64,000 bases of DNA from Methanosarcina acetivorans C2A (GTDB lineage: Archaea > Halobacteriota > Methanosarcinia > Methanosarcinales > Methanosarcinaceae), in the NCBI RefSeq assembly GCF_000007345.1, contig NC_003552.1:434001-498000 (forward strand). Direction: 5' to 3'. The notes beneath the pieces were generated by a model, which ran no database searches, had not been told where the DNA came from, and saw nothing but the letters and a program-made list of their open reading frames with translations. Below are positions 35,736 through 44,798 of the stretch, in pieces; the stretch's first letter is position 1, and every line of letters begins with the position of its first letter. A program made the translations under genes and the position numbers.

Positions 35736-36503
35736 TCAATGAATAAGATAGAGGCTCAGGGAAACCACAAGCATCCCCGAAAACACGCCCAGGAAAGTCA
35801 GATGCTCATCTCCATACTTTATGGCTATCGGCAGCAATTCATCAAAACAAATAAAGACCATGACTCCGCCGACTGCAGCGAGCATGAAGAAGAGAATTTC
35901 CGGGGTCAAGAAGCGGAAAAGAAGAAAATACCCGATCCCCGCTCCCAGGGGTTCGGTGAGCCCTGAAAAGAAAGAATAAGCAAAGGCTTTTTTCCGGCTG
36001 CCACTGGCATAGTAGATAGGAATCGAAACCGCAACCCCTTCAGGAATGTTATGGATTGCTATGGCTATTGCAACCGAAAACCCCAGATAAGTAGAACTGA
36101 GGGATGAAAACAGAACGGCCATGCCTTCGGGAAAGTTGTGCATGGCAATCCCAAATGCCGTTAACAAGCCTGTTTTCCGAAGATTGTGGTTTTCACTTAC
36201 GGAAAAAGGGTTCCCGTCATGAAGAGTATCCATGTGGATGTGCTCGACCATGCGGTCCAGAAGACACATCCCGAAAATTCCCAGGAAAAAAGCAGCATTT
36301 GCCTGGAAAAAACCCACAGCTCCAACAGACTCAGTAAGTAGTTCCACGAAAGAGATATAGATCATAGCCCCTGCCGCAAAACCGAGTAGTGCAGACAGCC
36401 AGGAAAACTTCAGATTGGGCACTAAAAAGGCTATAAGACTGCCAAGGCCAGTTGAAATTCCTGCAAATGTTGTAAGAAAAAAAGCAGTTGTTACATCTCC
36501 CAT
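35736..36503 (-). CDS. ZIP-family metal transporter (ZupT-like)
   Basis: 255 residues, about eight membrane helices, the usual size for prokaryotic ZIP proteins, which import Zn2+, Fe2+ or other divalent cations. The two hallmark metal-binding helices are clear: AMHNFPEGMAV near residue 120 and AIHNIPEGVAVS near residue 150. A His-containing loop (EHIHMDTLHDGN) precedes helix 4. A TATA-like TTTAAAATA lies about 35 bp upstream. Its position just before the CobN-like genes in the same direction suggests a shared role in metal supply, though it lacks the shared Box I. Confidence 0.9.
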   Translation of the reverse strand: MGDVTTAFFLTTFAGISTGLGSLIAFLVPNLKFSWLSALLGFAAGAMIYISFVELLTESVGAVGFFQANAAFFLGIFGMCLLDRMVEHIHMDTLHDGNPFSVSENHNLRKTGLLTAFGIAMHNFPEGMAVLFSSLSSTYLGFSVAIAIAIHNIPEGVAVSIPIYYASGSRKKAFAYSFFSGLTEPLGAGIGYFLLFRFLTPEILFFMLAAVGGVMVFICFDELLPIAIKYGDEHLTFLGVFSGMLVVSLSLYLIH

Positions 36504-40239: not shown

Positions 40240-40614
40240 ATGCCTGAATCAAAATCGTCATCTGGCGATGGCACTGTCTTAATATTCCCCTGTGCAGGTG
40301 CCACGAACCTTGGACAGCTTTCAACCCGCCTGGGAATTGAAATGGAAAATAGAGGCCTTGGTACCTTCAAGTGCACGGCGGGAATTGGCTCCCAGCGTTC
40401 GGATTTTCTAATTGCTGCTACCCGCTGTGACAAAATAATTGCTATCGACGGCTGTGATTTCAACTGCTCGATGAAAATGCTCCGAAAAGCTGGCTTTGAG
40501 GCAGATCGACACCTCATCCTCACAAAAGAACTCGGAATGAAACTGAACAGAGAAATGAACATCTCCGACTCCCTGGTCAGCGAGAGCATGGAAAAACTTT
40601 CAGACAAGTTATGA
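40240..40614 (+). CDS. Putative zinc-binding protein, DGC domain
   Basis: 124 residues from ATG 40240 (a TTG nine bases upstream is possible). The family pattern is present: VLIFPCAGATNLGQLSTRLG near the N-terminus, the conserved C-T-A-G-I-G around residue 47, RCDKIIAIDGCDFNCSMKML near residues 67-86 with the D-G-C motif, and the C-terminal helix with LTKELGMKLNRE. These small Cys-containing proteins are annotated as zinc-binding from their conserved Cys residues, without a firm function. It opens the metal-related island of 40-45 kb. Confidence 0.8.
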   Translation: MPESKSSSGDGTVLIFPCAGATNLGQLSTRLGIEMENRGLGTFKCTAGIGSQRSDFLIAATRCDKIIAIDGCDFNCSMKMLRKAGFEADRHLILTKELGMKLNREMNISDSLVSESMEKLSDKL

Positions 40615-40914: not shown

Positions 40915-41265
40915 ATGGTACACCATATGCACCTCAAGTGCTATCAAATGAAAATGGGAGATTCCCTTTACTGTGACGACTGCGGATTCGAAGTCATGGT
41001 AACAAAGGAATGTGACGAGAGCTGCAAGAAAGAAGGCTGCTGCGATGTGGAAGAACTGATGTGTTGCGGCAAACCCATGGCACTGAAACAGCATGTTCGC
41101 TGCTACGAGATGAAGAAGGGAGATGTCCTGATCTGCGACGACTGCGGTTTCAAGGTGGAGGTCGTGGATGAATGCGACCAGCACTGCAGGAAAGAAGGCT
41201 GCTGTGAAATTACCGAAATGATATGCTGCGGCAAGGTTATGAAACTCATCAGGAAAGATGTATAA
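40915..41265 (+). CDS. Desulforedoxin-like cysteine-rich protein, two domains
   Basis: 116 residues made of two similar units (about 6-60 and 61-112). Each unit has C-Y-x-M-K-x-G-D near its start, CDDCGF, then an insert with E-C-D-x-x-C-x-x-E-G-C-C, and ends CCGKPM or CCGKVM. C-x2-C followed by C-C-G-K-P-M is the iron-binding pattern of desulforedoxin. The extra Cys-rich insert between the two pairs is unusual and gives nine or more Cys per unit. The N-terminus MVHHMH adds His. The start ATG 40915 has an excellent GGGGAGGG site; the upstream TTG is not needed. A cytoplasmic metal carrier or redox buffer is my inference. Confidence 0.8.
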   Translation: MVHHMHLKCYQMKMGDSLYCDDCGFEVMVTKECDESCKKEGCCDVEELMCCGKPMALKQHVRCYEMKKGDVLICDDCGFKVEVVDECDQHCRKEGCCEITEMICCGKVMKLIRKDV

Positions 41266-41283
41266 GGGAACGGGGGATAAGAA

Positions 41284-41463
41284 ATGGTTCACCACCTACA
41301 CAAGAAATGCTTTGAACTGAAAAAAGGACAGAAACTTGTCTGTGATGACTGCAGTTTTGAATTGACAGTTGTAAGAGAGTGCGACAAAACGTGTGAAAGT
41401 GAAGGCTGTTGCGAAATCAACGAATTCAAATGCTGCGGCAAACCCATGAACCTGGCGGAATGA
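41284..41463 (+). CDS. Desulforedoxin-like cysteine-rich protein, single domain
   Basis: 59 residues, too short for many gene finders: MVHHLHKKCFELKKGQ, then CDDCSF, the E-C-D-K-T-C-E-S-E-G-C-C insert, and CCGKPMNLAE. It is a one-unit version of the preceding protein with the same MVHH start. A GGGGGAT ribosome binding site precedes the ATG, and the gene lies 18 bp after its neighbour, so they are co-transcribed. Confidence 0.85.
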   Translation: MVHHLHKKCFELKKGQKLVCDDCSFELTVVRECDKTCESEGCCEINEFKCCGKPMNLAE

Positions 41464-41647
41464 GCCCGAATCTACTAAAAAACGGTAATTTATCTTTACG
41501 AAAACTGGTCTTTGCATTCTATTTATAATTTGATCCATTTCTGATATTTCCCAGGTAATTTTCTCAGGTAATTTTCCCGATCAGAAAAGGGATATTAAAA
41601 GCAAAGTAAATCCGCTCAAAATTTCAGTAAATCTAATTGGAGGCGCA

Positions 41648-41664
41648 AAATAAAGTTTACTTTA
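41648..41664 (+). promoter_or_regulatory. Box II operator-like site at the ECF transporter gene
   Basis: AAATAAAGTTTACTTTA, identical over 17 bases to the site upstream of CobN-like 2 (24165-24181, opposite strand) and close to that before CobN-like 3. Orientation relative to the downstream gene is the same in all three. Confidence 0.6.
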
Positions 41665-41696
41665 TATGTAATCAACTAAATTTGATATATAACGAC

Positions 41697-42515
41697 ATGA
41701 TGGGAATCTATGAATGGGGAGTATTGGATAATATGCACAGGTTTATGGATGATCATGCCCTGATGAGCCCCGGCAGGCACAGAAACAATAACCTTAAACT
41801 GTTTATCGCGTTTTTCGTGACCATGGCAGGGGTTTCATCTTCTTCTCCTCTCCCTCCCCTGTTTATAACGCTTTGCATTAGTACTGCAATTATATATTTT
41901 GGTAAGGTTAACAAAAAAGCATATTTGAAAATACTCGGAGCACCATTAGGATTTTCTCTGACCGGAGTATTGATAATTGCTTTTTTTTTCGGTTCAGGCG
42001 CCGAGATATTCGGGTTTGACGTGTTTGGATTCCGGATAGATATGAGTACAGAAGGGCTGAATACGGCACTTCTCGTTCTTTCAAGAACCCTCGGAGGCAT
42101 ATGCTGCCTCCTTTTTCTGTATTTCACAATACCAATGGTCGAGCTTTTCTCCGTGTTAAAAGCCTGGAAAATTCCGGACGTCTTCTTGAAGCTTTCCACG
42201 CTCATTTATCGCGATCTCTTTGTCTTCCTGGATGTTGCTATGGCTGTCAAAGTCGCCCAGGAAACCCGGCTCAGGTATAAAGACAAAAAGGTTTCTTTCC
42301 ATTTCATGGCAATGCTTTTGAGCACCCTGTTCATCCGGGTGTGGGAAAAGGGCGAGAAACTCTTTGTCTCTATGAACTCGAGATGCTATAGCGGAAAGCT
42401 GCCCCTTTTTGAAGCAAGGAAACCGATAAAGTCTCCGGAAATCATACTGACTGAAGCGTACTTCCCATCCGTTTTAACCCTGCTTTATCTCACAAAAAAC
42501 ATCCAGATAGTGTGA
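41697..42515 (+). CDS. ECF transporter T component (CbiQ/EcfT family)
   Basis: About 272 residues, five or more membrane helices. EcfT/CbiQ proteins couple the ATPases of energy-coupling-factor transporters to a substrate-binding S component, for Co2+, Ni2+ or vitamins. Family features are the DDHALMSPGRH start, helices around residues 30-115, and the two coupling regions near LSTLIYRDLFVFLDVAMAVK and SMNSRCYSGKLPLF, where A-R-G-type motifs normally lie. ATG 41697 is one possible start; ATG 41733 (RBS GGGGAG) is another, and upstream TTG 41637 would overlap Box II. The matching ATPase follows; no S component is nearby. Confidence 0.85.
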   Translation: MMGIYEWGVLDNMHRFMDDHALMSPGRHRNNNLKLFIAFFVTMAGVSSSSPLPPLFITLCISTAIIYFGKVNKKAYLKILGAPLGFSLTGVLIIAFFFGSGAEIFGFDVFGFRIDMSTEGLNTALLVLSRTLGGICCLLFLYFTIPMVELFSVLKAWKIPDVFLKLSTLIYRDLFVFLDVAMAVKVAQETRLRYKDKKVSFHFMAMLLSTLFIRVWEKGEKLFVSMNSRCYSGKLPLFEARKPIKSPEIILTEAYFPSVLTLLYLTKNIQIV

Positions 42516-42548
42516 ATCCCAAATTGATCCTTATCGAAGTTGGAAAAG

Positions 42549-43874
42549 ATGACAATTCTGGAGACAACAGACCTTAAGTACACCTATCCTGACGGCACCC
42601 TGGCAATTGAGGATGTCAGCATTTCGATTGAAAAGGGGAAAAAAATTGCCTTAGTAGGACCAAACGGGTCCGGGAAGTCCACACTTTTTTTGCTCCTGAA
42701 TGGCACTTTGAAACCCCAGGAAGGGGAAATAATCTTTCACGGCAAGCCGCTTCTCTACGAAAAGGCTTCACTTAGAGACGTCCGGAAAAGCGTAGGTATC
42801 GTGTTCCAGAACTCCGATGACCAGATATTCGCTCCTACCGTTTACCAGGACGTGGCTTTCGGGCCCATAAACCTTGAAATGCCAGAAGAAGAAGTGGCTG
42901 CAAAAGTAAATGAGACACTGGAATATGTGGGGCTTCTGGAACTAAAAGACAAGCCTCCTCACCACCTTAGCGGAGGGCAAAAAAAGAAGGTCGCAATTGC
43001 AGGAGTTGTGGTAATGGAGCCTGAAGTTATCATCCTAGACGAACCTCTTACGAGCCTTGACCCCGTGGGGGCTGACGAGATCCTCGATTTGCTGAACGAG
43101 TTAAACCAGTTTGAAAAGGCAATTGTGATCTCAACCCATGATATTGACTTTGCATACTCCTGGGCGGATTACATCTACCTTCTAGTGAACCGTAAAATCA
43201 TTGGAAGCGGTACTCCGGAAGAGATATTCCGTGATCCTGGCATGCTCAAAGATGCCGGGCTCAGGATTCCAATGGTACTTGAGATTTACTACGAAATCCA
43301 GAAAAGAAATATGGCTTCAGTAAACAGAGTGCCAAAAACGGTTCCCGAAATCGTGGATACTTTAAAGCCCCCGTCCCTTATCTGGCTGGATGTACCCGAA
43401 GGAGTTAAAGAAGGGGATAAGCTTGACCTCGGGCTATATGCAGAGCAGCTGGGAGAGATCTGTTCCGAGGGGGTCGTGGACACAAGGGTGCTCCATATTC
43501 ATGAGAGTGGGCAGGCCATCGTGGCTGTGAAGCGGATAAGAGCGGGGATAGGAAGAGTCCTCATTTATGATACGGACAACTATAAACTCAAAGAAATCAA
43601 AGGACTTCTTGCTTCCGGAGACTTCGATGTAGTGGGTGCGATGGGTAAAAAGACCAAACTCATAGTGGAAAGTGATAACCTGAAACCGGATCTCACTGTC
43701 GGGGTAATCGATAAATCCATCCTGACGGCACTTTGCGGGAAGAATGTCCTGATTTTTACAGGCGGGGGAATGGTGGACCACGCTGTCAGGCGGATTTCGG
43801 ACTACTGTAAAAAAAGCGGGGTCAGGATTAACGTGGATGTTTTTAACAGGGAAACAGGAGAGGCTCAGGATTAA
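42549..43874 (+). CDS. ECF/CbiO-type ABC ATPase with an extra C-terminal domain
   Basis: 441 residues. Residues 1-235 are a standard CbiO/EcfA ATPase: Walker [13 protein letters not shown]-loop with [15 protein letters not shown] (the paired D-Q typical of this group), signature [14 protein letters not shown], Walker [16 protein letters not shown], switch STHDIDFA. From about residue 270 to the end there is an additional alpha/beta domain (for example [20 protein letters not shown] and [20 protein letters not shown]) that CbiO proteins usually lack and that I cannot name. It lies about 34 bp after the T component gene and forms the transporter core with it. Confidence 0.9.
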
Positions 43875-43934
43875 AGGAAAATACGGAAGCGTGTAATCTC
43901 GAGACTTCTTGAAAAGTGGGAATTTACAGGGGGA

Positions 43935-44360
43935 ATTCAAAAGCTTCCAAACGTTGACCTTGAAGAGTACGAACATACCCACAACCACAGCAAACACGCC
44001 CATGTTCACACCCATTGGGCTGTAGACCCTTCTTGCGCACCGTCCGGGACTCGAGCAAAGCTGTTTTTACCCGCGTGCTCGACTGTATGGACCCAGAAAT
44101 GGTATAGGAGATCGAGCATGAAATCGGCCATGTCACGGGAGTGAAGGAAATAAAGGAAGTCCGTGTGTGCTGGATCGGGCACAAGCTGCATTCCGAAGTG
44201 AACATCGCAGTTGACCCCGAGCTATCTGTTGAAGAAGGGCATGAAATTGCATGGATGTCAGGCATGAAATGATGCATCACCTTGAATATCTTTCCAACTC
44301 TGTCATTCATGTGGACCCGGTGGGTCATTCCGGGAAGAATATCATCGTATTGAGGAACAT
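43935..44360 (+). pseudogene. C-terminal remnant of a CDF-family metal transporter
   Basis: A His-rich piece reads HTHNHSKHAHVHTHWAVDPS (frame of 43956). After a frameshift near 44030 the cytoplasmic domain continues: DSSKAVFTRVLDCMDPEMV, an in-frame TAG, then EIEHEIGHVTGVKEIKEVRV and AVDPELSVEEGHEIAW. A second frameshift precedes HHLEYLSNSVIHVDPVGHS. The N-terminal membrane part is missing. The pattern fits the C-terminal domain of cation diffusion facilitators, which export Zn2+, Mn2+ or Co2+. Two frameshifts make it non-functional regardless of the UAG. Confidence 0.7.
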
Positions 44361-44453
44361 GAGCACGGGGGATATCCTCCGCATGGGCATTGAACGAGCA
44401 ATTTGAAACTGAAACAACAAGATACTGAGAAAAGAAATAAGGAGAGTTGAGAA

Positions 44454-44798
44454 ATGACGGAAGTGATAAATGCCAGGTGCTATGATCTGAAAAAGGAACA
44501 GGTTCTGGTCTGCGAGCACTGTGGCTTTGAACTAACAGTTGTAAATGAGTGTGAGAAGGCCTGTGAAGATGAGGGTTGCTGTACCCTCTCTCAGTTTATC
44601 TGCTGTAACGAGCCTATGAAACTGCGAACCTATTCCTGCTATGAACTGAAGAAAGGGGATTCCCTGGTCTGCGAAAACTGCGGCTTTGAGCTGACGGTTG
44701 TAAAAGAATGCAACTTGAGCTGCCTGACCGAAGGTTGCTGTGACCTTACGGAGTTTGTTTGCTGCGGGGAGCAGATGAAAATCAAAAGAGAGGAGTAA
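44454..44798 (+). CDS. Desulforedoxin-like cysteine-rich protein, two domains
   Basis: 114 residues, third member of the family in 4 kb: two units, each with C-Y-x-L-K-K, CEHCGF or CENCGF, an E-C-x3-C-x3-G-C-C insert, and CCNEPM or CCGEQM. A GGAGAG ribosome binding site lies 9 bp before the ATG. It closes the island behind the broken CDF gene. The sequences differ from the other members mainly in charged residues, while all Cys positions are kept, so metal binding is under selection. Confidence 0.8.
   Translation: MTEVINARCYDLKKEQVLVCEHCGFELTVVNECEKACEDEGCCTLSQFICCNEPMKLRTYSCYELKKGDSLVCENCGFELTVVKECNLSCLTEGCCDLTEFVCCGEQMKIKREE

Follow-up and report, generated by a model that had tools for sequence, protein, structure and literature searches.

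Desulforedoxin is a known Fe(Cys)4 protein and, together with the N-terminal domain of desulfoferrodoxin (PF06397), it is the closest described counterpart of the small cysteine-rich unit considered here. They share the C-x2-C ... C-C core, the fold and the CCGxxM ending; the unit differs in that it is 55 residues long instead of 36, carries five extra cysteines, is fused in pairs in the locus under study and stays under the Pfam cut-off. LysW and other zinc-ribbon carriers are also short Cys-rich proteins, and share with the unit a C-x2-C-G-x-E-L-x-V stretch; however, this match covers only about 16 residues and reaches 17.9 bits, versus the lysW equivalog cut-off of 53.2. Regarding the transport genes at the locus, two described systems are relevant. 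One is the cobalt ECF transporter CbiMNQO (group I ECF): the CbiQ and CbiO of the locus score over the NCBIfam cut-offs, and the orthologous locus of a relative contains CbiM and CbiN in the usual order, whereas both are deleted here. The other is the CDF family of metal exporters (TIGR01297), intact in this relative and present only as a pseudogene in our locus. The locus belongs to Methanosarcina acetivorans C2A and lies in a stretch of 64,000 nucleotides (the window), which corresponds to positions 434,001-498,000 of the single 5,751,492-bp contig that was searched as the genome.

Three small genes of the window, all on the plus strand, encode the Cys-rich desulforedoxin-like proteins: a two-unit protein at 40915-41265 (units at 40915-41088 and 41089-41262), a one-unit protein of 59 residues at 41284-41463, and a second two-unit protein at 44454-44798 (units at 44454-44624 and 44625-44795). 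When the 59-residue unit was used as query against the whole genome, the other four units were recovered with E-values from 1.4e-21 to 1.1e-16, far beyond chance, along with a sixth, solitary copy at position 2,544,134. An initial sequence-only reading had described five units of about 55 residues in three small genes, and both the open reading frames and this search agree with it. The window units are 53-57% identical to the 59-residue copy. As that reading stated, all the cysteines are kept; nevertheless, its list missed a ninth, N-terminal cysteine, and the insert, given there with a spacing of two or three residues, is E-C-x3-C-x3-G-C-C in 5/5 units. The nine cysteines are thus common to the five units; in the 59-residue protein C20, C23, C50 and C51 form the Cys4 site, and C9, C33, C37, C42 and C43 are the five further ones. 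The unit genes are under purifying selection: compared with its orthologue in the closest relative found, a genome of the same genus (G078), the first two-unit protein is 90.5% identical with a dN/dS of 0.09, the one-unit gene shows a dN/dS of 0.04, and the second two-unit protein is 90% identical with a dN/dS of 0.14. No signal sequence is visible in the units, which are probably cytoplasmic proteins.

No model of Pfam or NCBIfam matches the unit above its cut-off. The window copies fall under the gathering score of 23 bits of PF06397, and the best E-value with this model among the aligned unit members is 4.4e-5. Compared with solved proteins, the unit profile matches LysW over a short stretch and desulforedoxin over the unit length, with the insert as a gap. 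An AlphaFold2 model of the one-unit protein (pLDDT 82, built with only seven sequences) was used for a fold search, in which desulforedoxin (1dxg) was the clear top match with a Foldseek probability of 1.00. The VIA comparison of the model with 1dxg gave a Z of 4.3 and an rmsd of 1.7 over 36 residues, that is, all 36 of 1dxg, and the TM score was 0.78 by target; the modest Z is as expected with a 36-residue target. The Cys4 core cysteines (C-x2-C ... C-C) are present in every aligned member, and those of the insert are partly or wholly absent in some relatives (L054, L096). From the profile and model matches it follows that the unit would be a pair of knuckles of the desulforedoxin type, into which a loop, usually rich in Cys, is inserted. 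The original description of the unit as desulforedoxin-like thus agrees with its profile, its predicted fold and its cysteine spacing, and, as modelled, it is a desulforedoxin-type Cys4 fold with five further cysteines.

Between the unit genes lie the two transporter genes that the sequence-only reading had called EcfT and EcfA. Pfam and NCBIfam identify them as cbiQ (41733-42515, plus strand; PF02361, 1.9e-37; TIGR02454, 134 bits for a cut-off of 112) and cbiO (42549-43874, plus strand; ABC_tran; TIGR01166, 243 bits for a cut-off of 212; NF010171), the latter with readable Walker A, LSGGQ and Walker B motifs. CbiO is 87.5% identical to the CbiO of the orthologous cluster in G078 (L036). At its C-terminus it is extended by about 170 residues, a stretch that is also present in the CbiO of relatives and is without a Pfam match. 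The ancestral cluster would begin with a gene for a DGC-domain protein (40240-40614, plus strand; PF08859, 5.8e-24), whose orthologue occupies the matching place in L036 and is 94% identical, with a dN/dS of 0.12.

The orthologous cluster in G078 is intact and reveals what the window has lost. Its order is DGC, two-unit protein, one-unit protein, CbiM (231 residues; TIGR00123, 3e-88), CbiN (105 residues), CbiQ, CbiO, a CDF exporter (376 residues; TIGR01297, 1.4e-69; PF01545) and two-unit protein. The metal-type importer noticed earlier beside the units is thereby sharpened to a cobalt CbiMNQO accompanied by a CDF exporter. In the DNA alignment the window tracks L036 up to the start of cbiM and picks up again at the start of cbiQ, and flank identity is 94% for the 88 bp immediately upstream and 89% across the unit genes. 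The heptamer ATGCACA opens both cbiM and cbiQ in L036, 1,044 bp apart, and a single one remains in the window at 41733-41739, the deletion junction; two copies in the relative and one here are the typical trace of deletion between short direct repeats. The start of cbiQ is most likely the ATG at 41733, since the L036 CbiQ begins at the matching MH, and the reading frame upstream of it would be the old cbiM leader. A tblastn search with CbiM and CbiN found no remnant of either in the window interval, and a solo S component within the locus was rejected for the same reason. The observation that the S component is missing at the locus was therefore correct. Its absence is, as read from the alignment, a secondary loss through a clean deletion of cbiM and cbiN (1,044 bp).

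The CDF gene has followed a similar course. A tblastn search with the intact 376-residue protein of L036 detected a remnant at 43901-44393 on the plus strand, in which a His-rich N-terminus is followed by the C-terminal domain; some 165 transmembrane residues are deleted, and the rest is spread over several frames, with frameshifts and a stop. Together with the deletion of cbiM and cbiN, this decay suggests that the cluster lost both its importer specificity and its exporter, and from its sequence the locus by itself would import no metal any more. An ECF core working without an S component had been put forward as a novel arrangement; this is not supported, because the orthologous locus of G078 still has cbiM and cbiN, which the window has lost by deletion. 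The transporter is best read as one of known type that is broken, and the route of S-component loss removes a false lead.

Elsewhere in the genome there is an intact paralogous CbiMNQO operon, whose CbiM, at 4,391,422, is 64% identical to the lost one, and two more CbiM-family genes lie in the region at 4.93 Mb; this remaining set would make the loss of cbiM and cbiN tolerable. As cbiQ and cbiO of the window are intact reading frames with a dN/dS of 0.13, they may remain in use, for instance together with a CbiM encoded elsewhere. The sequence-only reading had likewise envisaged a functional CbiQO with a borrowed S component, which would be the CbiM at 4,391,422. The intact state of both genes and the existence of that CbiM are in line with this idea; however, the distant CbiM has its own complete CbiMNQO operon, and the loss of cbiM and cbiN along with the decay of the CDF gene resembles the decay of a cluster. 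Moreover, cbiQ has diverged from its G078 orthologue at synonymous sites (dS 1.37) some three to five times as far as its neighbours have (0.26-0.5), which points to a different history and gives no sign of use, so that a borrowed S component is very improbable. The cbiQ stretch probably arrived by recombination with a diverged copy, and this leaves the conclusion on cbiM and cbiN unaffected.

Upstream of the junction, in the former cbiM promoter region, the perfect palindrome ATAAAGTTTACTTTAT (ATAAAGT-TT-ACTTTAT) at 41650-41665 is a candidate operator. It is the sole exact copy in the 5.75-Mb genome, on which ground a wide regulon was rejected; two tandem near-copies stand in front of cbiM in L036. 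No RNA element was found near the cluster at Rfam thresholds.

The spread of the unit was determined in the archaeal family Methanosarcinaceae, where it occurs in 50 of 112 genomes at 77 distinct places. Among 393 genomes drawn from the phylum it was restricted to members of this family at an E-value of 1e-5. Two actinobacterial relatives were found in a species collection with a narrow unit alignment, a search that samples the spread outside the archaeal family poorly; viral relatives of the unit were not found. The unit is mostly alone, away from ECF genes, and its commonest places are beside genes for D-aminoacyl-tRNA deacylase, DUF3147 and MATE proteins, and beside malic enzyme. Units at these non-cobalt places have about as many cysteines, which indicates that a Cys-rich insert is no particular mark of cobalt loci. 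Only four of the 77 places adjoin CbiQO: the window, its orthologue in G078, a second locus of G078 with a decayed pair of units near CbiM-CbiN-CDF-CbiQ-CbiO and CobN, and a locus in a second genus (G060), in which three tandem units and a fourth one adjoin CbiMNQO with CbiD and CbiE. Another unit of G060 has a DtxR/MntR-like regulator on one side and a CfbA-type chelatase on the other; CobN and a Mg-chelatase-like AAA protein adjoin them. From CbiN, and from the neighbouring cbiD, cbiE and cobN of the relatives, the substrate of the importer would be cobalt.

This distribution bears on whether the units are generic zinc-ribbon adaptors, serving protein-protein contact or regulation, that stand beside cobalt genes by chance. 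Most members are indeed solitary and in non-metal neighbourhoods, and the unit has a weak profile likeness to the LysW, Zn-ribbon and RPAB4 families. Nevertheless, cobalt importer loci were met three times independently in two genera, where about 0.2 such neighbours would be expected by chance (a rough estimate from genome sizes), and a tree groups the intact cobalt-locus units of both genera together, except for the fourth G060 copy, with a support of 0.74, which is weak given 55 columns; the decayed G078 pair was not placed in this tree. We consider a chance association of this kind quite unlikely. The sequence-only reading had said that a known zinc ribbon without ECF co-occurrence elsewhere would speak against it, and the outcome lies halfway: the unit is mostly without ECF genes, but a second genus repeats its link with CbiMNQO and CDF genes.

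Regarding function, we tentatively favour, at somewhat less than an even chance, a reading in which the locus is what is left of a cluster for cobalt or nickel homeostasis, and the units acted as a thiolate buffer or carrier of these metals beside the importer and the CDF exporter. The ancestral cluster would have comprised the DGC protein, Cys-rich units, the CbiMNQO importer, the CDF exporter and again Cys-rich units. Metal would bind at the Cys4 site, and the five further cysteines could form a second thiolate site. Metal brought in by the importer would be buffered or carried by the units, preventing mismetallation of other proteins, and would then either enter corrinoid (or F430) synthesis or leave the cell through the CDF protein. 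Deletion between the two ATGCACA repeats removed cbiM and cbiN, so that cbiQ now follows the old cbiM leader directly; the CDF gene decayed. A narrower proposal, which we regard as somewhat unlikely, is that methanogens use the cobalt-locus branch as a cytoplasmic carrier or buffer dedicated to cobalt (or nickel), connecting import by CbiMNQO, chelation of the CfbA/CobN type and export by CDF through its Cys4 and five-cysteine sites. The favoured reading is supported by the intact G078 cluster, the exact deletion junction, the G060 loci, the second G078 locus, the grouping of the cobalt-locus units and the match to desulforedoxin. The scarcity of places that adjoin CbiQO, the predominance of non-cobalt neighbourhoods, the intact state of cbiQ and cbiO and the weakness of the tree support argue against it.

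The main rival to metal carriage is a redox role. The units would then be desulforedoxin-type Fe(Cys)4 electron carriers with the extra cysteines as a disulfide switch, and would stand in cobalt clusters because reductant is required there (e.g., to take Co(II) to Co(I), or in chelatase reactions). Consistent with such a role, the best solved match over the unit length is an Fe(Cys)4 protein, and in an actinobacterial MAG (L096, 7389-8162) the gene that directly follows one for a COQ7-type ferritin-like protein encodes a desulforedoxin-like unit without some of the insert cysteines. However, nine cysteines and two-unit fusions exceed the needs of an electron carrier, and the cobalt clusters are without a partner oxidoreductase gene, so we judge this role unlikely.

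The novelty that remains is real but modest, and lies in a Cys-rich form of the desulforedoxin fold, one branch of which is tied to cobalt clusters; the literature searched contained nothing relevant on the unit or on a desulforedoxin metallochaperone. The proteins are small and easily purified, no Pfam model covers the family above its cut-off, and one of the branches turns up repeatedly in clusters of cobalt genes. Of the archaea surveyed in PMC2667541, Methanosarcina species have the largest proteomes dependent on nickel and cobalt, and with this family the hand-over of cobalt within their cells could become testable.

Other metal-related genes are present in the window. Four large CobN/Mg-chelatase-like proteins of 1452-1922 residues, one of them confirmed by PF02514, are encoded in a row at 14684-35360, with apparent signal peptides and C-terminal membrane anchors; a similar CobN-like protein flanks the second CbiMNQO/CDF locus of G078 (L116). 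Between these genes and the unit cluster lies a gene for a ZIP-family metal transporter (PF02535) at 35736-36503.
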